Positions 19,475-34,728 of a stretch of DNA of 64,000 nt are shown in pieces. Under the pieces are notes generated by a model. The model had not been told where the DNA came from. It ran no database searches and saw only the letters and a program-made list of their open reading frames with translations. The stretch comes from SAR86 cluster bacterium. Lineage in GTDB: Bacteria; Pseudomonadota; Gammaproteobacteria; Magnimaribacterales; D2472. The stretch spans positions 522,315 to 586,314 of the forward strand of contig CP097971.1 of assembly GCA_023703615.1 (NCBI GenBank), given 5' to 3'. Positions within the stretch are counted from its first letter, which is position 1. Every line of letters begins with the position of its first letter. Both the position numbers and the translations under genes were made by a program.

Positions 19475-21799
19475 ATGTCTAGAATTTTATTAAAGCCGTT
19501 ATTCGAAAAAAAATCTGATCCATTAACGAACTTATTAAAAGATATTTTTAAGGAAAACAATTTTGCGCTTTCTTATTTGGGAGCACTTAGTTTGGGTATT
19601 GGTGTTTCATCAAATATTCAAGCCCAAGACAACATTGAAGAAGTTATCGTTACAGCTGCTAAGAAAGAACAGAATCTTCAAGATGTGGCTATGAGCGTTC
19701 AAGCAATATCTGCAGCAGATCTTGATGCAAAAAATGTTAAAGATTTAAGCGATATAGCATTTTTATCACCAGCAGTAACATTAGATGCAGGTGGTCCAGG
19801 AAACTCTACTTTTTATATAAGAGGTGTCTCTGATGGCGGTTTTGGAAATCCTTCAGGTGCAGCAACAACAACTGCTTTATATCTCGATGAACAGCCGTTA
19901 ACCACAATAGGTCAGACCCCAGATCTTCATGTTTATGATATTGAGAGAGTTGAAGTTCTTGCTGGTCCTCAAGGTACACTTTATGGGTCAAGTTCCACAT
20001 CAGGTAATATAAAAATTATTACAAAAAAACCAGATGTTAGCTCTGTAGACTATGGATTTGATATAGATTATGGAACAGTTAACAGTGGTGATATGGATAA
20101 ATCTTTAGAAGCATTTGTAAACCTTCCGTTAGGTGATGACTCAGCAATGAGAGTAAGTGCGTATAATTTAACAGATGGTGGATTCATTGATAACGTTCCT
20201 TCAACTATGACATTTACTAATTCAGGGGTGACTATAGATAATAACGATGTCGCTGAAGAAGACTACAATACATACGATAAGAAAGGACTAAGAACAAGAT
20301 TTTCTACATCAATTGGATCAACTGATCTTGATTTCTCTTTTCTAACACAAGAATCAAAATATGGCGGTTCACCAGAAACTGATGAGGCGGATGGACCAAG
20401 ATCTAATTCAAGATTTATAGAAGAATATTTTAATGATGATTTTGAACAAATGTCTTTAACTATTGCAGGAAACATAAGTGATGATATCGAATACATTTTT
20501 ACATCTTCATTTTTTGAAAGAGATGTTGAGTATATGTATGACTACTCGGAATATGTTGAATATTATAATTATGATGGACCAACTTATACTTGTGACTATT
20601 ATGACTATTACTATTACTATAATATTTCAGGTTGCCAAGATCCTAGAATGTCATATATGCAAAATGATAAATACGAGAGAACCTCTAATGAATTTAGAAT
20701 TCAATCAAATTCTGATTCCGGTTTTCAGTGGGTTCTTGGAGCATTTTCAGAAGATAACAGAAGAGATTATGAAATGGATTACCAATGGCCGGGTTCAAAT
20801 CCAGGCAATCTATCGTTTGGTGTACCAAATGGTAATTGGTGGAATCTTGATAATACAAGAGAAGAGGAAACTTCAGCTGTATTTGGTGAAGCCTCTTATG
20901 ACATAAATGATAAAACAAATATAACTGTTGGATTTAGAAATTATGATCAAGACACCGTTGTTGATGCAAAAGATGGATACTATGGTGTATTTGACGGTAC
21001 CAACAAAGTATATAGAAATAGTGATTCAGGAACTATCCCAAAAGTTAGTGTTTCTTACGATGTTGATGACGATATTATGATATATGGAGTTTACTCTGAA
21101 GGATTTAGAGCCAGCGGTATAAATAGAGTAAGACCAGCGCAAACAGCATTCATTCCTGAGCTCTTTGATGCTGATTATCTTGAAAGCCTTGAGTTTGGTT
21201 TTAAATCAACTTTAGCTGATGGGAAACTTATTTTAAATGGTGCTGCATATTTTATGGATTGGAATGACTATCAATCCACTCAATATAATCTTGCTTATTC
21301 AACTGTTTCATTTGTAGATAATGTAGGAAATGCAGAAATAAATGGTATTGAAATTGACGCTACATATAAGGTAGATGATACTTTAACCTTGAATGCATTT
21401 GTAATATCAAATGATCCAACATTATCTGAGGATTATTTTGATGTGTCTGGAGTTCTCCAGGCAAGTTCAGGAAATAGATTAGCATATGTACCTGAAACAT
21501 CTTACGTTTTAAGTTTAGATAAAGTATTTGAAATTATGGGAAGACCTAGTTATTTCAACTTGGATTATTCATATACTGGAGATAGATATGATTCTCAAGC
21601 TAATACTGTTACTTTACCAGAATATTCCATTGGTAATATGAGACTGGGTGTTGAGAACGAAAACTCTTCAATGGAACTCTACATCACAAACTTTACAGAT
21701 GAAGTTGCGTATTTAACTAGGTATCCTGACTTTAATAACATTAGAAGAACACCTAATAGACCCAGAGTAATTGGATTTAGAATAAGATATAGATATTAG
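19475..21799 (+). CDS. TonB-dependent receptor with tyrosine-rich extracellular loop
   Basis: This 774-residue outer-membrane receptor has a long N-terminal extension before its signal core (hydrophobic FALSYLGALSLGIGVS, cleavage after IQAQ), then a TonB box (EEVIVTAAKK) and a plug ending LAGPQGTLYGSSSTSGNIKIITKKP. The barrel ends in GFRIRYRY. Residues 353-388 form a loop in which 15 of the first 30 residues are tyrosine, mixed with Asp/Glu and closed by cysteines 373 and 387. The receptor at 30293 has a cysteine pair in the same region. The ligand is unknown. The start has AAGGGGGATA upstream. Confidence 0.92.
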   Translation: MSRILLKPLFEKKSDPLTNLLKDIFKENNFALSYLGALSLGIGVSSNIQAQDNIEEVIVTAAKKEQNLQDVAMSVQAISAADLDAKNVKDLSDIAFLSPAVTLDAGGPGNSTFYIRGVSDGGFGNPSGAATTTALYLDEQPLTTIGQTPDLHVYDIERVEVLAGPQGTLYGSSSTSGNIKIITKKPDVSSVDYGFDIDYGTVNSGDMDKSLEAFVNLPLGDDSAMRVSAYNLTDGGFIDNVPSTMTFTNSGVTIDNNDVAEEDYNTYDKKGLRTRFSTSIGSTDLDFSFLTQESKYGGSPETDEADGPRSNSRFIEEYFNDDFEQMSLTIAGNISDDIEYIFTSSFFERDVEYMYDYSEYVEYYNYDGPTYTCDYYDYYYYYNISGCQDPRMSYMQNDKYERTSNEFRIQSNSDSGFQWVLGAFSEDNRRDYEMDYQWPGSNPGNLSFGVPNGNWWNLDNTREEETSAVFGEASYDINDKTNITVGFRNYDQDTVVDAKDGYYGVFDGTNKVYRNSDSGTIPKVSVSYDVDDDIMIYGVYSEGFRASGINRVRPAQTAFIPELFDADYLESLEFGFKSTLADGKLILNGAAYFMDWNDYQSTQYNLAYSTVSFVDNVGNAEINGIEIDATYKVDDTLTLNAFVISNDPTLSEDYFDVSGVLQASSGNRLAYVPETSYVLSLDKVFEIMGRPSYFNLDYSYTGDRYDSQANTVTLPEYSIGNMRLGVENENSSMELYITNFTDEVAYLTRYPDFNNIRRTPNRPRVIGFRIRYRY

Positions 21800-22674
21800 T
21801 ATTCGTTTAGCAAAGAATTAAGAACTCTTTCTAATTGATCTGGATCTTCAAAGTATGGAAAGTGTCCAGTTCCTTCTAATGTAAATATATCTTTATCATG
21901 ATCAACGTTAGCAAAAATAGCATTGTCAGGGTTAAATCTGGCTAGTTTATCTTTATCACAAAAAATAAATTTTATATTTTTTAATTTTGCTATACCTGTA
22001 TCAGAAAGTCTAAATTTATTGCATGACTTGAGATCAATAGAACTAATCTCCTTTTCTGTTTGATTAAAAAGTCTCTTTAATGGATATAGTTTTATTTCTC
22101 TTTCTGGATCACCTTCAACAACTTTAGTCCCATAAGGTGATTTTATTTCTCCCTTCGATCGGCCATAAAAACCTGAACCTTTAACACCAAAACCAGTTGT
22201 TTTAATTTCCACATCTGGCAATTTATAAACTCCATATTTCATTAAGAATTCTACTGCTTGGTCTAAATTTCCTTTAGCAAAATCAAGTAACATGTCACCA
22301 ACTAAAAAAGGATACGCAATATTCATACAAAAAGTCATTTTATTTTTGTACTGTGTAGATAGATCGAGAGCAACTAATCCACCCCAACTATGTCCTGTGA
22401 ATATTACCTCAGGCAATTTAAGATTATCGAGAACTTCAATGCATAATTTAGTATGACTTTCTACATCATAAAAAAGAGGACCAGTAGTATACCCATGACC
22501 TGGAAGATCAATAGCTAGAATATTAAATTTATCTTCTAAACCACCAAACTTAAACATTGATAAAATTCTATGATCCATCCCAGCTCCTGGTATAAAAAGA
22601 ATACTAGTTTTAGATGCATCTATATCTTTTTTACAATAAATATGAACTTTATGATTTTTTAATTGAATAAACAT
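21796..22674 (-). CDS. Alpha/beta hydrolase
   Basis: This 292-residue protein is an alpha/beta hydrolase with FIPGAGMDHRIL as oxyanion region, IDLPGHG, nucleophile S96 in TGHSWGG and catalytic histidine in EGTGHFPYFEDPDQLE. It lacks a signal peptide. The substrate is unknown. It overlaps the upstream BCCT transporter gene by 26 bases and the convergent TonB receptor by four. The pairing with BCCT suggests it may act on an imported ester (inference). Confidence 0.85.
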   Translation of the reverse strand: MFIQLKNHKVHIYCKKDIDASKTSILFIPGAGMDHRILSMFKFGGLEDKFNILAIDLPGHGYTTGPLFYDVESHTKLCIEVLDNLKLPEVIFTGHSWGGLVALDLSTQYKNKMTFCMNIAYPFLVGDMLLDFAKGNLDQAVEFLMKYGVYKLPDVEIKTTGFGVKGSGFYGRSKGEIKSPYGTKVVEGDPEREIKLYPLKRLFNQTEKEISSIDLKSCNKFRLSDTGIAKLKNIKFIFCDKDKLARFNPDNAIFANVDHDKDIFTLEGTGHFPYFEDPDQLERVLNSLLNEY

Positions 22675-24124
22675 TTTTAATTATTGAGTATATTAAAAGC
22701 ATATTAATAAAAAGCAATGGAACTGATGCAATTACCATTATCCATTTAAAAGCATCAACTCCTCCCATGAACATTAAAAGGGTGGGTTGAACTACCAATA
22801 TAATTGCATAGACAACTCTTAAGCTTTTTGAGCTAGCTTGTTCAGAGCTTTTCATAGAAGCTCCTGCAAGAACATATGAAGTTGAATCATAAGTAGTGCA
22901 TAGAAATATAATGCAAATAATTAGAAATGCTATAAGAATATATTTTCCAAACGATAGTGTGCCAATAGTTCTAACTATTATCTCTTCTCTAGTTTGTAGA
23001 GAGTTTGATATTAAATCTGGTGCATTATAAGTATTACTTTCAAATAAGCTTATTGATAGGTTAGATAATATTGCCATGCTAAATATACATCCAAAACCAC
23101 CAATTAATATGGTTCCTAGTATCATTTGCCTTAAAGATTTATTGTTAGAAATATTTATAATGAATGCTCCTACCATCGGAGCAAGAGCTAGCCACCAAGC
23201 CCAGTAGAAAACACTCCAATCTCTGCTGATTTCAGTTCCAGTTGCTGTGCTTAATTCAGGATATTTTTTCATCATAAAAATAAAGCTTTCAAAAGAATTA
23301 GATAATATATAGCTTGTTGGACCGAGTATAAAAACAAGAAATAAAAAAATAATCACTAAAATTACATTGAAATTACTAAGTTTTTTAATGCCATTTTGAA
23401 TACCTGCATAAGCACTTGATCCAAAAATAGATAAACATAAAAAAATAGTAAAAAAGTCTAGATAAATACTTTTATCAACAGAAAAAACTTTAGATATTAG
23501 TGTTGATATGAGCGGAAAAGATAATCCAAGTCCTACTCCTGCTCCACAGATAATTGCACCTATAAAAACTATATCTAATACAAGCTCATTGAATTTATTT
23601 TTTACATTAAAAATACCAGAAAATGTAAGTTTAGATTTTGGACGAATACTTAAAGAAAGAGCAAACGCTACAGCTGGTAAACAATATATTGCCCATGCAG
23701 TAAACGACCAGTGAAATAATGGGTAGACTCTCGAATACGTAATCCTCTCTTCATAATCATAATCATCAAGAACATTATAATAATCAATCCATTCTACAGT
23801 AGACCAATATAGTAATGCTGCACCTATGCCTGCTGCAAATAACATTCCACCCCATGAGAAAAACGAGTGACTTGATTTATTATGAATATTTATTTTTATT
23901 GAACCGTATTTTGAAAGGGCAAGACCGATTAAAAATAATAATAATATTAAGCTTCCATAAACGTAGTAATTTTCAAATATTGTAGATAAATAAATATATG
24001 CTTCGTTCAAGGCTATCGTTGTTTCTATAGGATTGTAAAGAACAAAAAATGTAAGAATTAAAGAGAGCAAAATTGTTATACTTATAGTAGTTTTGTTCCA
24101 CTCAGGGTTTAATTTTGAAAACAT
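22649..24124 (-). CDS. BCCT-family transporter (betaine/carnitine/choline/DMSP type)
   Basis: This 491-residue, 12-helix inner-membrane protein carries the BCCT signatures GMLFAAGIGAALLYWSTVEW and DWSVFYWAWWLALAPMVGAFI, the latter holding the aromatic box that binds trimethylammonium or sulfonium groups. Likely substrates are glycine betaine, choline, carnitine or DMSP; specificity cannot be fixed. Its ATG abuts the ATG of the divergent TPR-sulfotransferase gene with no intergenic base. A second BCCT lies at 28561. Confidence 0.9.
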   Translation of the reverse strand: MFSKLNPEWNKTTISITILLSLILTFFVLYNPIETTIALNEAYIYLSTIFENYYVYGSLILLLFLIGLALSKYGSIKINIHNKSSHSFFSWGGMLFAAGIGAALLYWSTVEWIDYYNVLDDYDYEERITYSRVYPLFHWSFTAWAIYCLPAVAFALSLSIRPKSKLTFSGIFNVKNKFNELVLDIVFIGAIICGAGVGLGLSFPLISTLISKVFSVDKSIYLDFFTIFLCLSIFGSSAYAGIQNGIKKLSNFNVILVIIFLFLVFILGPTSYILSNSFESFIFMMKKYPELSTATGTEISRDWSVFYWAWWLALAPMVGAFIINISNNKSLRQMILGTILIGGFGCIFSMAILSNLSISLFESNTYNAPDLISNSLQTREEIIVRTIGTLSFGKYILIAFLIICIIFLCTTYDSTSYVLAGASMKSSEQASSKSLRVVYAIILVVQPTLLMFMGGVDAFKWIMVIASVPLLFINMLLIYSIIKNVYSIKKS

Positions 24125-26089
24125 ATGACTTTAGAGAATAATATAAAAGCTGCTTTTAAAAATGCTGTTGATTATTTTAATAATAATAATCTAAATGAAT
24201 CTATTGAACAACTTGATGAAATCTTAAAAGTATTTCCAAGCGACGTTAAATCATTGTCATTGCTTGCTGATATCTATGTAAAAAAAAATGATTCACATAA
24301 AGCATTGAATTTTATTAATCAAGCTTTATTTTCTAGTAGCAATAAACAAATTTTATTAGAAAAGAAATATAAAATTTTAAAATTTATCGGTGACGAAATT
24401 AACTCTTTTTCAATTTTAGAAGAGTTACATGAAAAATATCCATCAATTAATACTGCTAGAGAAATCTCGAATATACATTTATCAAAGGATAACGTTGATG
24501 AGGCTGATAATGTAATTCAAACTTTTTTTGAAACAAATGCTAATTATTCTGAATTATATAAAGGTATAAGACATGCAAAGGCTGGCCGATTGAAGCTAGC
24601 GGAAGATGTCTATAAAAAAATACTTAAAGATGATAAAAATAATATTGATGCGCTTAGGTTATTAGGTTTAATTGCATTTAGAGCTAAAAACTATGATCTA
24701 GCAGAAAAATTATTCACAAGAGCTATTTCTATTAATCCATATTTTTCTTTAGCTTGGGATAATTTAGGAAAGGTATTTAGAGTTCAAAATAAGCTGTCGA
24801 AATCTAAAATTGCTTTTAAGAATTTATTAAAAATTGATCCAAATAATTATGAAGCATTAGTTTCTCTTGGTACTTTATATGTAAAACTTGCTGAATACGA
24901 AAAGGGCATAGATTGCTATAAAGACTCTTTAAAAATAAATCCTTCAAACGCTCGTGTTTTTCTGAGCATGGGACATGCGCTTAAGACTTTAGGGAAACGT
25001 AAAGAATGCGAATCTTCTTATCATAACGCAATAAAATTTTATCCTAATTCAGGTGAAGCATATTGGAGTCTTGCCAATTTAAAAACTTACAAGTTTTCTG
25101 ATGAAGAAATTGAATCCATGGAAACAAGTCTTACTCATGAAATACATCCTGATGAGAAAATTCAAATGCACTTCGGCCTTGGTAAAGCTTATGAATTTAA
25201 TAAAAATTTTAAAAAATCTTTTTTTCATTATAAAGAGGGTAATTGGTTAAAAAGGAAATCAATTGAATACAATTCAGAGGATAATAAAAATAATACTGAT
25301 TTGCTGATTAATTTTTTTTCAGAACACGCAGCAAGCATTAACTTAAAAAGTGGTTTTCAATCAAATGATCCAATATTCATTCTTGGTCTGCCAAGGGCAG
25401 GATCAACATTGCTAGAACAAATTCTTGCATCTCATTCTCAAATTGAAGGAACACAAGAACTTCCAAATATTATGGGTATTGGAAGGCAAATCAAACTAAT
25501 TAATGATTCAGAAAATTACTTGAATAATTTATTTAAGTTATCAAATGACGATATATATAAATATGGAAAAATGTTCATTGATGATACACGATGGGCTAGG
25601 ACCAACAAACGCTTCTTCATTGATAAGATGCCTAATAATTTTGCGCATATTGGGTTAATAAAAATGATATTACCAAATGCAAAAATAATTGATGCCAGAA
25701 GAAAACCTATGGATGCGTGTTTAAGTTGTTTCAAACAGTATTTTGCAAAGGGCCAATTATTTACTTATGACTTAGATGATATAGCTCGTTACTATAAAGA
25801 TTACAAAAAATTAATGGATTATTGGAATAAATTATTTCCAAACAGCATTCATACTGTAATGTATGAAGATGTTATTCTAGACTCAAGCAATGAAATCAAA
25901 AAAATATTTAATTTTTTAGAACTAGAGTTTGAGGATGAATGCCTGAACTTTTATAAATCTTCTAGACCAGTCAAAACTGCAAGCTCTGAGCAAGTTAGAC
26001 AACCTATTTATAAGAATGCATTAGACTACTGGAAAAATTTTGATGATGACTTAAGCGATCTTAAAAGGCATTTTAATAATGATAACTAA
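24125..26089 (+). CDS. TPR-repeat sulfotransferase
   Basis: This 654-residue protein has about ten tetratricopeptide repeats (residues 1-390) followed by a sulfotransferase domain (about 417-654). The PAPS 5'-phosphosulfate loop is ILGLPRAGSTLLEQILASHS near residue 421, followed by a conserved EGTQELPNI, and the 3'-phosphate site is NAKIIDARRKPMDACLSC. No signal peptide is visible, so it acts in the cytosol. The loop resembles protein-tyrosine sulfotransferases as well as small-molecule ones; the acceptor is unknown. A paralogue lies at 32776. Its ATG directly abuts the ATG of the BCCT gene. Confidence 0.88.
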   Translation: MTLENNIKAAFKNAVDYFNNNNLNESIEQLDEILKVFPSDVKSLSLLADIYVKKNDSHKALNFINQALFSSSNKQILLEKKYKILKFIGDEINSFSILEELHEKYPSINTAREISNIHLSKDNVDEADNVIQTFFETNANYSELYKGIRHAKAGRLKLAEDVYKKILKDDKNNIDALRLLGLIAFRAKNYDLAEKLFTRAISINPYFSLAWDNLGKVFRVQNKLSKSKIAFKNLLKIDPNNYEALVSLGTLYVKLAEYEKGIDCYKDSLKINPSNARVFLSMGHALKTLGKRKECESSYHNAIKFYPNSGEAYWSLANLKTYKFSDEEIESMETSLTHEIHPDEKIQMHFGLGKAYEFNKNFKKSFFHYKEGNWLKRKSIEYNSEDNKNNTDLLINFFSEHAASINLKSGFQSNDPIFILGLPRAGSTLLEQILASHSQIEGTQELPNIMGIGRQIKLINDSENYLNNLFKLSNDDIYKYGKMFIDDTRWARTNKRFFIDKMPNNFAHIGLIKMILPNAKIIDARRKPMDACLSCFKQYFAKGQLFTYDLDDIARYYKDYKKLMDYWNKLFPNSIHTVMYEDVILDSSNEIKKIFNFLELEFEDECLNFYKSSRPVKTASSEQVRQPIYKNALDYWKNFDDDLSDLKRHFNNDN

Positions 26090-26753
26090 AACATTTGAAT
26101 ATCCAGTATTAAAAAGAGTTGAAATAGACTCGGCGAGATATTATCTTGATTCATTAGGTAATCCTGTACCAAGTGTTACAACAGTGCTATCAAAAACCTC
26201 AAATAAATCTGATGGCATTGATCAATGGAAGGTTAGGGTTGGCAATGAAGAGGCTGAAAGGATTATTAAGTTAAGTACTGATATAGGATCGGCTGTTCAT
26301 GAAGCAATAGAAAATTATTTAAATAATACACTTTGGGATAAATTTGAAGATAGTTTAGATCAAAAAATAGCGAAAAAAATTTCTCAAAAGTTTATAAAAG
26401 ACGGTTTAAATGATATATCAGAAATTTGGGGTCTTGAGGTCGGATTAATTTTAGACAACCTTTATGCAGGAACAGCAGACTGTGTTGGAATTTATAAAAA
26501 TAAAGAAAGTATTATTGATTTTAAGACAGCAAAAAAAATTAAAAAAAGAGAGTGGATAGAAGATTACTTTCTTCAGTGTTGTGCCTATGCAAATGCACAT
26601 AATGTTATGTTTAATACTAAGATAGAACAGCTAGTGATATTAATGGTTGATAGAGATTTAATTTTTAAGGAGTTTCTAGTCAAGCCCATTGAATTTAAAA
26701 CTCTTACTGGCAAATGGAAGTCAAGACTTATTAAATTCAATAAAGAAAAATAA
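26079..26753 (+). CDS. PD-(D/E)XK superfamily exonuclease (Cas4/MGME1-like)
   Basis: This 224-residue protein has the RecB-nuclease pattern: H74 in GSAVHEAIENYL, E120, D134 in AGTADCVGIY, D147 and K149 in SIIDFKTAKK, and Q166/Y170 in LQCCAYA. Those are the metal and scissile-phosphate residues of PD-(D/E)XK nucleases; the layout is like MGME1 or Cas4, but the four-cysteine iron-sulfur site of Cas4 is missing. It would process single-stranded DNA ends. It overlaps the sulfotransferase gene by 11 bases. No CRISPR array or phage genes were seen nearby. Confidence 0.75.
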   Translation: MITKTFEYPVLKRVEIDSARYYLDSLGNPVPSVTTVLSKTSNKSDGIDQWKVRVGNEEAERIIKLSTDIGSAVHEAIENYLNNTLWDKFEDSLDQKIAKKISQKFIKDGLNDISEIWGLEVGLILDNLYAGTADCVGIYKNKESIIDFKTAKKIKKREWIEDYFLQCCAYANAHNVMFNTKIEQLVILMVDRDLIFKEFLVKPIEFKTLTGKWKSRLIKFNKEK

Positions 26754-28560: not shown

Positions 28561-30045
28561 TTATAACTCATCCTCTAGAGACTTATACAGATTTTTAATA
28601 GCAAAAATAACAATTATTGCGAAAGGAACTCCCAAAATAACAACTGATGTTTGAAGAGCAACCAAACCACCTGCTTTAAGTAATACAGCAGCAAGAACAC
28701 CTAAAAGGATAGCCCAAGTTGCTCTAGTAAAAATTGGAGAGTCATCATTAATATTAAATTGTTTTTTTGAGGAAAGCATTGATGCAACTAGAGATCCTGA
28801 ATCTGAGGAGGTAACGAAAAAAGTTACAATTAGGATTAAAGTAATTATTGATAATATTTTAGATAATGGATAGGCATCATAGAGTGAGAAAAGCGCAACT
28901 GGAAAATTATTAGAAACAATTTCACCTAAATTAGATGTTTCATTAATAACTTGATGTATTGCAGCATTTCCAAATATGCCCATCCAAATAAACACAATCA
29001 ATGAAGGAACAAAGAGAACACCAATTACAAACTCTTTAACAGTTCTACCATAGGATATTCTTGCTATGAATAAGGATACAAATGGAGCCCATGCAAACCA
29101 CCATGTAAAGTAAAAAAGCGTCCATCCATTTTGCCAAGAGCTCGTATCATATGCTTCGGTATAGGTTGCCGATTGAATAATTGAATTTAGATATGCACCA
29201 AAGTTTTGTACAAGCGAATTAAGGATAAAAATAGTAGGACCTAATGCAAAGACCACAAGAAGCATAAATAGGGCAATTATCATATTAACTTGAGATAGTC
29301 TTTTTATGCCCTTATCAAGGCCTAAACATACACTTATTAAACCTATAAACGTTATTACTATAATAATAATAAACTTATTTAAATCCGACTGAGCAATGCC
29401 AAAAATATGCTCAAGTCCAGCACTTATTTGCATTGTTCCAAGACCAAGTGAGGTAGCAACGCCAAAAACAGTAGTTAAAATTGCTATGATGTCTATGAAT
29501 ATTGAGAGAGTTTGATTGCTTGTAACTTTATCCCCAAGTAACGAGCTTACTCTAAACGGTAATTTTTTATTATAAGACGTGAAAGCAAAACATAAGCCAA
29601 GTGCTGAATATACTGCCCATCCATGAAGCCCCCAATGCAGATTAGCTAAACTTATAGCTTTTGCAGCGTTATAAGAACTATCACCGTCAATCATTTTAGG
29701 AAATGAAGATAGATGCATAACAGGTTCGCCAACCCCGTAAAACAACAACCCAATACCAAGACCCGCACTAAATAACATTGCTATCCAATTAATATAGGAG
29801 TAACTAGGAACAGCATCATAACCACCAAGACGAATATTCTTATATTTAGTAAATATTAAAAAGATCGAAAAAATTAAAAAGCCATTCGCTAAAAGTATTA
29901 TTAACCAACCAAGATATTCTGATAAAAATGTTTGTAAGTTTGTAAATAAAATTTCAGATAATTCTGAATTTAATGATACAAATACAGTTATTAATATTAC
30001 AGATAATACTGATATAAAAAAACGAGCTTTATTTATATTTTGCAT
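28561..30045 (-). CDS. BCCT-family transporter, second copy
   Basis: This 494-residue, 12-helix transporter shows GLGIGLLFYGVGEPVMH, the glycine-rich unwound helix that binds sodium and substrate in BetP/CaiT, and GWTLFYFTWWFAWAPFVSLFIARISYGRT, the aromatic-box helix. These are closer to BetP-type sequences than the copy at 22649, so the two may differ in substrate or coupling. It lies between a small membrane protein and a TonB receptor. No ribosome-binding site is clear. Confidence 0.93.
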   Translation of the reverse strand: MQNINKARFFISVLSVILITVFVSLNSELSEILFTNLQTFLSEYLGWLIILLANGFLIFSIFLIFTKYKNIRLGGYDAVPSYSYINWIAMLFSAGLGIGLLFYGVGEPVMHLSSFPKMIDGDSSYNAAKAISLANLHWGLHGWAVYSALGLCFAFTSYNKKLPFRVSSLLGDKVTSNQTLSIFIDIIAILTTVFGVATSLGLGTMQISAGLEHIFGIAQSDLNKFIIIIVITFIGLISVCLGLDKGIKRLSQVNMIIALFMLLVVFALGPTIFILNSLVQNFGAYLNSIIQSATYTEAYDTSSWQNGWTLFYFTWWFAWAPFVSLFIARISYGRTVKEFVIGVLFVPSLIVFIWMGIFGNAAIHQVINETSNLGEIVSNNFPVALFSLYDAYPLSKILSIITLILIVTFFVTSSDSGSLVASMLSSKKQFNINDDSPIFTRATWAILLGVLAAVLLKAGGLVALQTSVVILGVPFAIIVIFAIKNLYKSLEDEL

Positions 30046-30292: not shown

Positions 30293-32722
30293 ATGTTTAA
30301 TTTAACTAATACAAAAGAACAGCTTAATAAGGTTCTCAATAAAGTATCTTTAGGTGTTTTAGGTTCATTTGCAGCAATTGTTCCGCAAACTGCTGAAGCA
30401 CAAGATCGTCAAATCGAAGAAGTAGTTGTTTCTGCTACTAAGAAAGACGAAAGCGCATCAAAGATACCAGTTACTGTTACAGCGCTAACTGAAGAAACAT
30501 TAAAGGAAATGAATGTATCTAACTTTGACGAATACATTGAATACCTTCCAAATGTTACAAACGCTGGTAGGGGTCCTGGACAATCAACTATCTATATTAG
30601 AGGTATGGCTGTTGATCCTGTTAATGTCTTTTTATCAGCCGCTCAAGGATCAACTCCTAACGTTGCTTTGTACTTAGATGAGCAACCATTGCAAGTTCCA
30701 GGAAGAAATTTGGATATTTATATTGCTGATATGGAAAGAATCGAAGTCTTACCTGGACCACAAGGAACATTGTATGGAGCAAGTTCACAAGCAGGTACTG
30801 TAAGACTTATAACAAATAAGCCTAAATTTAATACAACTGAAGGTGGAATAAACACTTCAGTGTTTGAAACAAAAAGTGGTGATGTAAGTAGATCATATGA
30901 TGTTTATTTCAATGCACCTTTAATTAGTGATGAATGGGCGATAAGAGGCGTATTTTATAATGCTAAAAATGGTGGTTATATTGATAATGTTCCAGGAACA
31001 TGGAGTGGTGAAGGTAGAGGTTCATTCCCATCAGGTGGAACAACTACTTTTGAAGTAGATGATAACGCTGCTTTAGTAGAAGAAAACTTCAATGATTCAG
31101 AATATACTGGTTTTAGAATTTCTTCAGCTCATTCTATAAATGATGATTGGGAAATGCTTATTACTCATTTAGATCAAGATCTGAGTGCTGACGGTGTTTT
31201 TGATTATGACCCTGCCAAAGGTGACTTATTAGTAAGCAGATTTGTTGAAGATACTCTTGATGATTCATTCTCACAAACTTCATTAACTCTTGAAGGAAGA
31301 TTGGGTAAACTTGATGCTTTATATACTGGAGCATATTTAGATAGAACTTCTAATCAAACTGTAGACTATAGTGGTTATGCAAATGTTGGTGCATGGTTGC
31401 CATACTATGTATGTAATGCATATGTTTATACATTATGTGGTTCTGCTACTGTTCAAGTAGATTTAATGGATAGTAATGAAAGAACTACCCATGAGTTTAG
31501 GGTATCTACAAATGAATTTTGGGATTCACCAGTAACTTTTACAGCAGGTGTTTTTATTGATGATAGTCAATTAATTACTCAAAACGATTATGGATACCTA
31601 GGTACACTTGATACTCCAGCTGCTATAGCAGGCTGGGGTGCATATTATATTGCTAACTCACCAATACCTGGTGCATATGCTTCAAATCCAAATCCAAGAC
31701 CAATGCAATACAGATTCTTTAATGATATTTTAAGAACTGAGGAGCAAACTGCATATTTTGCTGAAGTTACTTATCCATTATCAGATAGACTTGATATAAC
31801 TGTTGGTGCTCGTAATTATGATTTAGATGTTGACTTTAGAGGGCAATCTAAATTTGGTTATAGAGGAGCTAATGTTGCAAATGGAAGAGACTATGATGCT
31901 GGAGTTCATGGAACAGAGCCGCTAAATATGAGTGATACCATAACTAAGGTTACTGTTAGCTTTCAACAAGATGAAGATACTCTCTATTACTTTACAAGAT
32001 CAGAGGGGTATAGACCTGGTGGATTTAATAGAGGAGGTCTACTCGCTTCAAGAAACGCAGCATATGCGTCACCTCCATTAACATATGGAACAGACGATAC
32101 TATAAACACAGAGTTTGGTGTCAAAACAGTATTGCTTGATGGCTCAATGAGACTTAATGCAACATACTATGATGTTGACTGGTCTGATATTCAAACATCA
32201 AGATTTGATCCCGTTAATATTTCAATATTAACATTTATAGAAAATGCAGCTGACGCATCAGTTAGTGGTTTCGAAGCCGATGTATTATGGTATCCAACTG
32301 ATAATCTTACGTTATCAAGTGCCGTTACTGTTAATGATACCGAGGTTACACGTTTAAAAGCTCAAATTATTGAAATTGCACCTGTAGGTAGTCAGCTACC
32401 ACTATCACCAGAGGTTCAATGGAATTTAAGAATGAGATATGACTCAGAATTTGGAGGTAATCCAAGTTATACACAAATAGCAATAAAAAGTGCTGATGAA
32501 TCCTTTAGTTCACTTGAACAGGAAAAAAGATATCAACAAGATGCATACAAGATTCTTGATATGGCTTGGGGTATTCAAGTAGGAAACACAGATGTAGAAT
32601 TTTTTGCTAGAAATGTCACTGATGAAAGAGCTCAACTATACTTTAATGACCAAGATGATATTCCTAGAATATCTACTAATAGACCAAGGAATGTTGGTGT
32701 TAGAGTATCATATAGTTTTTAA
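30293..32722 (+). CDS. TonB-dependent receptor
   Basis: This 809-residue outer-membrane receptor has a long N-terminal stretch before its signal core (VSLGVLGSFAAIVPQTAEAQ), then a TonB box (IEEVVVSATKKDES) and plug ending LPGPQGTLYGASSQAGTVRLITNKP. The barrel ends GVRVSYSF. It is a clear paralogue of the protein at 19475, including matching plug residues and a cysteine pair in the loop PYYVCNAYVYTLCGS, but without the tyrosine expansion. Ligand unknown. GAGGGG precedes the ATG. A TPR-sulfotransferase gene follows. Confidence 0.92.
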   Translation: MFNLTNTKEQLNKVLNKVSLGVLGSFAAIVPQTAEAQDRQIEEVVVSATKKDESASKIPVTVTALTEETLKEMNVSNFDEYIEYLPNVTNAGRGPGQSTIYIRGMAVDPVNVFLSAAQGSTPNVALYLDEQPLQVPGRNLDIYIADMERIEVLPGPQGTLYGASSQAGTVRLITNKPKFNTTEGGINTSVFETKSGDVSRSYDVYFNAPLISDEWAIRGVFYNAKNGGYIDNVPGTWSGEGRGSFPSGGTTTFEVDDNAALVEENFNDSEYTGFRISSAHSINDDWEMLITHLDQDLSADGVFDYDPAKGDLLVSRFVEDTLDDSFSQTSLTLEGRLGKLDALYTGAYLDRTSNQTVDYSGYANVGAWLPYYVCNAYVYTLCGSATVQVDLMDSNERTTHEFRVSTNEFWDSPVTFTAGVFIDDSQLITQNDYGYLGTLDTPAAIAGWGAYYIANSPIPGAYASNPNPRPMQYRFFNDILRTEEQTAYFAEVTYPLSDRLDITVGARNYDLDVDFRGQSKFGYRGANVANGRDYDAGVHGTEPLNMSDTITKVTVSFQQDEDTLYYFTRSEGYRPGGFNRGGLLASRNAAYASPPLTYGTDDTINTEFGVKTVLLDGSMRLNATYYDVDWSDIQTSRFDPVNISILTFIENAADASVSGFEADVLWYPTDNLTLSSAVTVNDTEVTRLKAQIIEIAPVGSQLPLSPEVQWNLRMRYDSEFGGNPSYTQIAIKSADESFSSLEQEKRYQQDAYKILDMAWGIQVGNTDVEFFARNVTDERAQLYFNDQDDIPRISTNRPRNVGVRVSYSF

Positions 32723-32775: not shown

Positions 32776-34728
32776 ATGGAAGAAAAAACAACATTTAAAG
32801 AAGCTGAGACCTTAATTAGAAGTAGAAAATTTAAGGAAGCTCTCAATTACATAAATAAAAAAAGAAATAAAATATCGAATAAAGATTTTTTTTATTTAAG
32901 TGCTGTCTGTAATCGTTACCTCGATCATACTAAAACAGCATTAACTTGTTTAGATCAGTTAATACAAATTGCACCAGAGTATGGAAGAGCTTATCAAGAA
33001 TTTGGTCATATATATCTTAAAGAAAAGAATAAAGATATGTCATTGAAGGCGTATATGCGAGCAGTAAGGCATAACCCATCTCTTCATGCTTCTTGGTTGG
33101 GAATCCTAGCTCATGAAAATATCACAGATTCATTACGAGAATATGCAGAAAAAAATATTTTTTATCTTAAGAATCTTGAACCAGAATTAAAATCTGTTCT
33201 GAGTTTTATTCATGAAAGCAAATTAGCTAAAGCTGACAATTTATGTAGACATTTTTTGATTGAAAATCCTCATCATATTGAAGCAATGAGATTATTGGCC
33301 AAAATTGGTTCAGAATTATATATATATGATGATGCTGAGTTCTTGCTTGAAAGTTCAATGTTATTTGATCCAACAAATGTTCAAGTTAGATTTGATTACA
33401 TAACTATTTTAATTAAAAGACAAAAATATGGTGAAGCATTAAAACATGCAAAAAATTTATATAAAGATCATCCAAGCAACTCAAATGCTAAAAAAGCACT
33501 CGCAACGTGTCTTTTTAGAACAGATGGTTATAAAGAATCACTTGAGTTATATGATTCAATTCTTGAAGAAGAAAAAAATAATACAGATATTTATCTTTCA
33601 AAAGGACATTTATATAAAACATCTGGAGATATTGATAAAGCAATTTCTTCATATAAAAAATGCTATGAAATAGATAGATATTTTGGTGACTCTTATTGGA
33701 GCTTAGCTAATTTAAAAACCTATAAATTTACAGACAAAGAAATAAAAAATTTAACTAAAATGGTATTAGATGAAAATGTATCCAAAAATGAAAAGATATT
33801 TATGCATTTTGCATTAGGTAAAGCTTTTGAGGACCTTAAAGACTATCAGAGTTCATTTAACAACTATCATTTAGCCAACAAACTCAAAAAAGAATCATCT
33901 TTATTTAAATACCAAGACTATATAGATGACTGTAATAATCAGAAAACTGTATGTACAAAAGATTTATTTAGTACAAAAAATGAATGGGGTTTTACATCAG
34001 ATGAGCCTATATTTATCCTTGGTTTGCCAAGAGCTGGTTCAACTCTCATCGAACAAATCATCGCATCTCATTCAAAAGTTGAAGGAACACATGAACTACC
34101 AAATATAATCTCTACCGCACACAAATTAAATCAAAGAAGAGTTCAAGATATTAATTCAAAATATCCTGATATTTTGTTAGCTATGTCAGAACCTGAACTA
34201 GAAGTGATAGGTAAGAAATACATCAATGACGCTAGAGTTTTCAGAACAGACAAAGAATTTTTTATTGATAAAATGCCAAATAATTTTAGACATATTGGTC
34301 TAATAAAATTAATCTTACCTAATGCAAAAATTATAGATATAAGAAGAAGCTCGATGTCAGCTTGTTTTTCATGCTATAAACAACTTTTCGCAGAAGGCCA
34401 GGAGTTTACATATGACTTTAAGGATTTGGCAATTTATTATAATGAATATGTTGAGTTAATGGATCATTGGAATAATGTTTTGCCAGGCAAAATTTTGTCA
34501 ATTAAATATGAAGACGTAGTAATGGATCTGGAAAATTCAGTAAAAGAAATTTTAGATTATTGCAAATTACCTTTTGAGCAAAATTGCATAGAGTTTTACA
34601 AAAACAAAAGATCTGTTAAGACACCAAGTGCAGAACAAGTAAGACAACCTATTTATCAAAGTGGACTTAATTATTGGAAAAATTATGAATCTTACTTAAC
34701 TGAATTGAAATCAAACTTAAAATATTGA
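32776..34728 (+). CDS. TPR-repeat sulfotransferase, second copy
   Basis: This 650-residue paralogue of the 24125 gene has TPR repeats over about 380 residues and a sulfotransferase domain. The PAPS loop ILGLPRAGSTLIEQIIASHS begins near residue 414, EGTHELPNI follows, and the 3'-phosphate site NAKIIDIRRSSMSACFSC is present. Both copies share KTPSAEQVRQPIY or a near match close to the C-terminus. It is cytosolic by lack of a signal. It directly follows a TonB receptor and terminator. The acceptor is unknown. Confidence 0.88.
   Translation: MEEKTTFKEAETLIRSRKFKEALNYINKKRNKISNKDFFYLSAVCNRYLDHTKTALTCLDQLIQIAPEYGRAYQEFGHIYLKEKNKDMSLKAYMRAVRHNPSLHASWLGILAHENITDSLREYAEKNIFYLKNLEPELKSVLSFIHESKLAKADNLCRHFLIENPHHIEAMRLLAKIGSELYIYDDAEFLLESSMLFDPTNVQVRFDYITILIKRQKYGEALKHAKNLYKDHPSNSNAKKALATCLFRTDGYKESLELYDSILEEEKNNTDIYLSKGHLYKTSGDIDKAISSYKKCYEIDRYFGDSYWSLANLKTYKFTDKEIKNLTKMVLDENVSKNEKIFMHFALGKAFEDLKDYQSSFNNYHLANKLKKESSLFKYQDYIDDCNNQKTVCTKDLFSTKNEWGFTSDEPIFILGLPRAGSTLIEQIIASHSKVEGTHELPNIISTAHKLNQRRVQDINSKYPDILLAMSEPELEVIGKKYINDARVFRTDKEFFIDKMPNNFRHIGLIKLILPNAKIIDIRRSSMSACFSCYKQLFAEGQEFTYDFKDLAIYYNEYVELMDHWNNVLPGKILSIKYEDVVMDLENSVKEILDYCKLPFEQNCIEFYKNKRSVKTPSAEQVRQPIYQSGLNYWKNYESYLTELKSNLKY

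Follow-up and report, generated by a model that had tools for sequence, protein, structure and literature searches.

In bacteria, tyrosine sulfation is known for RaxX of Xanthomonas, and a review regards TPSTs as sparse in these organisms (PMC9372746). The sulfotransferase RaxST acts in the cytoplasm, before RaxX is exported (PMC9372746), and homologues of raxST have been reported without raxX (PMC6637879). An unpublished observation cited in the review holds that bacterial TPST genes often adjoin genes for extracytoplasmic proteins (PMC9372746). The receptor-sulfotransferase pairing described here agrees with that observation. It was found in a window of 64,000 nucleotides (31% GC) from the genome (1.23 Mb, one contig) of a SAR86 bacterium, an abundant ocean organism whose lineage is among the most abundant in the sea, and it joins TonB-dependent receptors (TBDTs) to sulfotransferases with a TPR domain (TPR-STs). 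In open-access papers, the coverage of which is limited, we found no link between the two. As a whole, the observations are best explained if TPR-STs sulfate loop tyrosines of their partner TBDTs and the anionic loop captures a cationic ligand, a reading to which we give a probability of about 0.52.

The receptor in question, a 774-aa TBDT encoded at 19475-21799 (+ strand), contains barrel (PF00593) and plug (PF07715) domains, both over their Pfam cut-offs. Its AlphaFold2 model, made with 43 homologues (pLDDT 81, pTM 0.80), has a 22-strand barrel, and the best Foldseek match of the model is FyuA (4epa, TMt 0.88). SAR86 orthologues and a tree assign the receptor to subfamily A of a TPR-ST-linked clade. 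As the sequence-only reading of this stretch had reported, 15 of the 30 residues at 353-382 (20531-20620, + strand) are tyrosines, with C373 and C387 as bounding cysteines, and this is exact on translation; 20522-20644 (+ strand) reads DVEYMYDYSEYVEYYNYDGPTYTCDYYDYYYYYNISGCQDP, residues 350-390. The protein has no further cysteines, and no other long open reading frame in the window exceeds 7 tyrosines per 30 residues. TBDT barrels alternate short periplasmic turns with long loops outside. In the model, residues 357-392 (20543-20650, + strand), which hold most of the cluster, form a long loop, L4, between strands 338-356 and 393-411. Because L4 is on the side of the barrel carrying the long loops, it is modelled as extracellular, with a low pLDDT of about 57-65 within the loop itself; the extracellular position first proposed from the sequence thus agrees with the modelled barrel.

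The tyrosines of the loop have been kept in near and distant relatives alike. All SAR86 orthologues of 47-74% identity retain 14-19 tyrosines in the loop region, and the core DYxxY...Y persists in more distant proteins. In an alignment of 43 ST-linked TBDTs (24-74% identity to the window protein), which defines the core motif D356-Y357-S-E-Y360 (20540-20554, + strand), Y360 is invariant, Y357 and Y371 (20585-20587, + strand) are each 95% conserved, and D356 occupies the position before Y357 in 98%. For the acidic context that protein-tyrosine sulfotransferases prefer, the picture is mixed. Net acidity within five residues is moderately higher around loop tyrosines than around other tyrosines of the linked TBDTs (0.93 versus 0.58; 1.72 versus 0.90 in SAR86) and is not raised in control TBDTs (0.47 versus 0.56), but beyond D356 the acidic residues are not conserved. 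The tyrosines are better conserved than their acidic surroundings, which rules out acidic context as the conserved feature. In two genera, a tyrosine run such as YTYDYTQYVYYYGYDYYAAYYYEYDYYASTD (locus L037) persists although the cysteines are absent and several of the acidic positions have been substituted. The paralogous receptor of the window (30293-32722, + strand; subfamily C) shares the core DYxxY...PYYxC...C with the first receptor, in the form DYSGY...PYYVC...C. It was said to have the cysteine pair and to lack the tyrosines; the pair is present, but so are 7 tyrosines in the corresponding loop.

Both of the TPR-sulfotransferases previously noticed nearby are real, each combining TPRs with a PF13469 (Sulfotransfer_3) domain. 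TPR-ST1 (654 aa; 24125-26089, + strand), in which the TPRs form a superhelix, is the partner of the tyrosine-rich receptor, a position kept in SAR86 synteny, and TPR-ST2 (650 aa; 32776-34728, + strand) begins 53 bp past the paralogous receptor. The PF13469 match (E 2e-44) and the invariant 5'-PSB arginine R424 (25394-25396, + strand, in TPR-ST1; aligned to TPST1) place them among the PAPS-dependent sulfotransferases, and inspection of their N-termini by eye revealed no apparent signal peptide. A third PF13469 gene of this genome, located elsewhere, encodes 372 aa, and short copies resembling it occur in most SAR86 genomes. The TPR superhelix, a protein-recognising architecture, is nearest to that of O-GlcNAc transferase in sequence and, by Foldseek, in fold. 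TPRs dominated the Foldseek hits, and the catalytic domain was placed instead with a profile of 12 catalytic domains, for which the nearest solved relative is human TPST1 (E 1e-13). The likeness to TPSTs rather than small-molecule enzymes that had been suggested holds up in this search, as TPST1/2 and other TPSTs (down to 1e-9) match far better than the small-molecule SULTs (only about 5e-3); the polyketide sulfotransferases CurM (2e-12), which is comparable, and OLS (5e-10) match as well.

Four residues, R424, E445, K501 and S620, are invariant in 34 TPR-STs and align with R79, E100, K159 and S286 of TPST1, positions whose catalytic roles are established for TPST2. This set shows TPST-like chemistry. 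It gives no indication of the substrate, because distant TPR-STs without a TBDT beside them conserve it just as strictly. Two of the TPR-STs are very long (1204 aa at L196 5890-9504 and 1725 aa at L200 4680-9857); each gave two matched stretches in the genome search, and no TBDT was found beside either.

The sequence-only reading had noted sulfotransferases within reach of the receptor in a single window, and comparison across genomes reveals a pairing that is far stronger than this, near-constant in the clade. Three related TBDT subfamilies in SAR86 (A, B and C) each lie beside a TPR-ST of their own: one or two opposite-strand genes separate the tyrosine-rich subfamily A from TPR-ST1, whereas subfamily B directly precedes its own ST and subfamily C directly precedes TPR-ST2. 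Five SAR86 genomes that are at least 85% complete and lack a long TPR-ST (G005, G012, G048, G052 and G106) also lack any strong match to the TBDT family of the window receptor, as read off the match lists, and one genome (G015) has a family-C TBDT with no ST within the 16 kb fetched. In the class-level sample, a TBDT adjoins 10 of 12 close TPR-ST loci and none of eight more distant ones. Likewise, at the phylum level a TBDT accompanies almost every close-clade ST, in most cases no more than 0.4 kb away, and the distant TPR-STs are mostly without one, although those of Pseudoalteromonas and one of Asticcacaulis nevertheless adjoin TBDTs. The linked clade's pairing spans Alpha- and Gammaproteobacteria, and outside SAR86 no other near-universal gene family was found beside the pair. 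Distances among the receptors correlate with those among their STs (r = 0.77, permutation maximum 0.20, n = 43), a correlation to which shared organism history contributes.

Several arrangements around these genes deserve separate mention. A 224-aa protein that matches no Pfam or NCBIfam family (26079-26753) is kept beside the pair in SAR86 at 55-72% identity. In G249, an orphan linked-clade TBDT (L143 6508-8907) and an orphan close-clade TPR-ST (L100 2682-4688) look like the two halves of a pair that came apart. A plasmid of Asticcacaulis sp. DW145 (L272 1477-9345) carries in tandem a TBDT, a Sulfotransfer_2 gene, an aspartyl/asparaginyl beta-hydroxylase, a TPR-ST and a further sulfotransferase, an array that looks like a receptor-modification operon, and on a plasmid of Lelliottia amnigena (L284 5016-11196) a family 8 glycosyltransferase and an autotransporter, which is a surface protein, come after a TPR-sulfotransferase. 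A search for tyrosine-rich partners other than TBDTs beside orphan and distant TPR-STs found none.

The tyrosine cluster itself follows ST linkage. The maximum number of tyrosines per 40 aa is 8.1 in 39 linked and 4.6 in 59 unlinked TBDTs, the latter drawn largely from the same genomes (p = 2e-15, a value that assumes independent sequences where the linked TBDTs are kin), and the pattern DY[STA]xY occurs in 31 of the 39 and in none of the 59. These 59 unlinked receptors rule out the cluster as a general TBDT feature. At the extreme, 18 TBDTs reach at least 9 tyrosines per 40 aa, the distant receptor L154 among them, and every one is ST-linked; none of 61 unlinked TBDTs has so many. The receptor of the window has the loop core D-Y-x-x-Y together with Y371 and groups with the linked TBDTs even when the loop is omitted. 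In a quick tree computed without the loop columns, 47 linked TBDTs and one orphan, from a sample collected around STs, form a single clade (SH-aLRT 100). Because the linked TBDTs form one clade, pairing and motif may represent one inherited event. In Novosphingobium pentaromativorans US6-1, the tyrosine-rich TBDT WP_007014627.1, with the loop DYSYYSVAYDSYTYEYDGVTY, is encoded beside the TPR-ST WP_239000627.1. On plasmid pLA3 of this strain (L275 3210-10076), two TBDTs flank the TPR-ST, and only one of them has a tyrosine-rich loop.

A scheme that joins the observed loop and its constraint with the pairing seen throughout the clade and with catalytic residues resembling those of TPSTs would run as follows. 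The tyrosine-rich receptor and TPR-ST1 would be one functional pair, and the paralogous receptor and TPR-ST2 a second. The TPR-ST would work in the cytoplasm as a TPST-type enzyme that depends on PAPS, and its TPR superhelix may recognise the receptor chain that has yet to be exported. Its catalytic domain would then sulfate at least one loop tyrosine, the best candidates being Y357, Y360 and Y371, with more in the expanded SAR86 version, and this would probably precede Sec export and barrel assembly. Outside the cell, the finished loop, anionic and aromatic, would serve as a lid or a bait for a cationic ligand, possibly a quaternary-ammonium compound or something that carries such a compound. 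Of the mechanisms considered, we infer sulfation of loop tyrosines as the likeliest, at about even odds. Several observations weigh against it: the variable acidic residues, the single clade to which the linked receptors belong, the ST-linked receptors that have no tyrosine cluster, and the missing recognisable route to PAPS in the window genome.

The ligand in this scheme comes from the neighbouring genes. A BCCT transporter gene (22649-24124, - strand; PF02028) lies between the receptor and TPR-ST1 in conserved synteny, and a second (28561-30045, - strand), whose closest NCBIfam model is a glycine betaine uptake BCCT, below cut-off, is divergent from the paralogous receptor, so that BCCTs flank both receptor-ST pairs in SAR86. 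Outside SAR86, BCCT genes are present at 14 of 39 linked loci (including L097, L163 and L171-L175) and at 0 of 40 control and 0 of 20 other TBDT loci, the control loci being shorter (9.3 kb versus up to 16 kb). BCCTs transport quaternary ammonium compounds, for which aromatic cages and anionic aromatic groups are both good binding partners. Because BCCTs recur beside the pair, there is a hint that the receptor takes a quaternary-ammonium ligand.

The same BCCT association would also fit a reading that we consider rather unlikely but of some weight, in which the loop tyrosines are unmodified and form a cage of aromatic rings around the ligand or a surface on which it stacks, while the substrate of the TPR-ST is the imported ligand or some other cell component of that pathway. 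Proteins that bind betaine or choline hold quaternary ammonium groups by such cation-pi contacts. The stronger conservation of tyrosines than of their acidic context speaks for this reading, and so does the absence of the cluster from some ST-linked TBDTs. A further point on its side is that the window genome offers no clear PAPS route. A Pfam search for the ATP sulfurylase PF01747 found none there, with CysN and unusual enzymes outside its scope; the single PF01507 match belongs to a PP-loop protein of TilS type, and the single APS-kinase match is weak (E 1e-5), to a 136-aa kinase that adjoins a nucleotidyltransferase-like gene (G000:C1:918797-919592; L263 1498-2293; L273 7798-8593). This kinase is kept in 52 of 57 SAR86 genomes, some of which have no PF13469 genes, and the two genes could possibly represent an unusual PAPS route or something unrelated. 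The missing recognisable route weighs on every PAPS-dependent reading of the SAR86 sulfotransferases, not on the tyrosine hypothesis alone. Against unmodified tyrosines, the neighbourhood outside SAR86 varies except for the BCCTs, found at about one-third of loci, and no pathway common to the loci emerged that could handle an imported substrate, as nothing else recurs. Moreover, the TPR superhelix and the similarity to TPSTs indicate a protein substrate, and the receptors of extreme tyrosine content are without exception ST-linked.

It is also conceivable, and in our judgement improbable, that the TPR-ST modifies the receptor elsewhere, at a few tyrosines, at serine or threonine or in another loop, with the tyrosine cluster an independent ligand-binding feature. 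TPR-STs do adjoin TBDTs without tyrosine clusters, as at L148, L150, L276, L279 and L272, and such receptors were also found at L187, L188 and L193, the whole set including Pseudoalteromonas and Asticcacaulis loci; the motif, moreover, is explicable by one clade. This account sits poorly with a motif that tracks ST linkage across very divergent receptors and is absent from unlinked members of the surrounding clade. It also has to contend with L154 (3272-7397), where a distant TBDT with ICAYYGYYYYVDNCSDYFDYWQAYYDN lies beside a distant TPR-ST and has its tyrosine cluster elsewhere in the protein, apparently an independent case of the association. Repeated independent origin of ST and tyrosine loop is unsupported as the main pattern, since one clade dominates and L154 is the sole clear exception.

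The cysteines invite a different idea, namely that the cysteine-bounded acidic and tyrosine-rich loop binds metal or carries other tyrosine chemistry, such as crosslinks or DOPA. Fe(III) can be coordinated by Asp, Glu and Tyr, and TBDTs often take iron chelates. C373 (20591-20593, + strand) and C387 (20633-20635, + strand) are proposed to be disulfide partners, being the only pair in the protein. The pair was originally regarded as a bounding feature of the loop, but it is dispensable: the loop has exactly two cysteines in 32 of 43 relatives, none in 11 and never one, a pattern that fits a losable disulfide. With both cysteines missing in two genera, an obligatory disulfide or metal site is ruled out. 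Whole genera that lose the cysteines and change acidic positions keep their tyrosines, and neither a dedicated oxidase gene nor a metal gene is a recurrent neighbour of the pair, which leaves this chemistry very improbable.

The loop was compared codon by codon with that of nine orthologues of about 73% identity. Of its 45 codons, 16-25 show synonymous differences, 5-8 of them TAT/TAC switches, and only 1-2 amino acids have changed; this ratio argues for strong purifying selection on the protein sequence of the loop. Such synonymous-only divergence rules out chance or AT bias as the origin of the run, and a functionless low-complexity stretch, for which the low GC of the window and AT-rich tyrosine codons might speak, is already refuted by this conservation, which extends across genera while unlinked TBDTs of the same genomes have no such run.

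Sulfation of partner receptors remains our preferred reading, and the pairing across Pseudomonadota suggests that bacteria may sulfate their own outer-membrane receptors. A broader form of it, somewhat short of an even chance in our estimate, is a widespread receptor-maturation system in which dedicated TPR-STs would sulfate extracellular-loop tyrosines of partner TBDTs and thereby tune ligand capture. If so, these receptors would be the first tyrosine-sulfated outer-membrane transporters, tyrosine sulfation would be a general bacterial surface modification across Pseudomonadota, TonB receptors would be chemically tunable after translation, and many TPR-sulfotransferases now annotated by domain only would gain a function. 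Culturable hosts, N. pentaromativorans US6-1 among them, would allow a direct test of the pair.

Among described systems, RaxST-RaxX is similar in having a cytoplasmic, TPST-like PAPS sulfotransferase encoded beside an exported protein that is sulfated before export (PMC6637879, PMC9372746). In contrast to RaxST, whose substrate is a small secreted peptide and for which no TPR domain has been described (we liken the two by description), the enzyme here has a long TPR superhelix and its proposed substrate is a 22-strand outer-membrane receptor. The RaxX-RaxST system also includes the RaxAB exporter, and its small substrate has a double-glycine leader. A RaxAB-type exporter was not found among the scanned neighbours, and the receptor itself would be the substrate. 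Animal TPST1 and TPST2 are the best profile match, and their R/E/K/S catalytic positions align with those of the TPR-STs, but they are Golgi-anchored and have no TPR domain, whereas the TPR-ST is apparently cytoplasmic with its TPRs at the N-terminus. The sulfotransferase domains embedded in polyketide synthases, CurM and OLS, are related too. These act on carrier-bound acyl chains and, unlike the TPR-STs, have neither a TPR domain nor a receptor partner. The receptor resembles siderophore-type TBDTs (FyuA, FhuA and CirA) in plug, barrel and fold, yet no NCBIfam TBDT model matches it at the curated cut-off, and its tyrosine-rich L4 is absent from the unlinked TBDTs sampled here. In overall architecture, the TPR-STs are like O-GlcNAc transferase and SPINDLY, in which a TPR superhelix likewise precedes a protein-modifying transferase domain; the difference is that the catalytic domain here is a sulfotransferase and not a glycosyltransferase.
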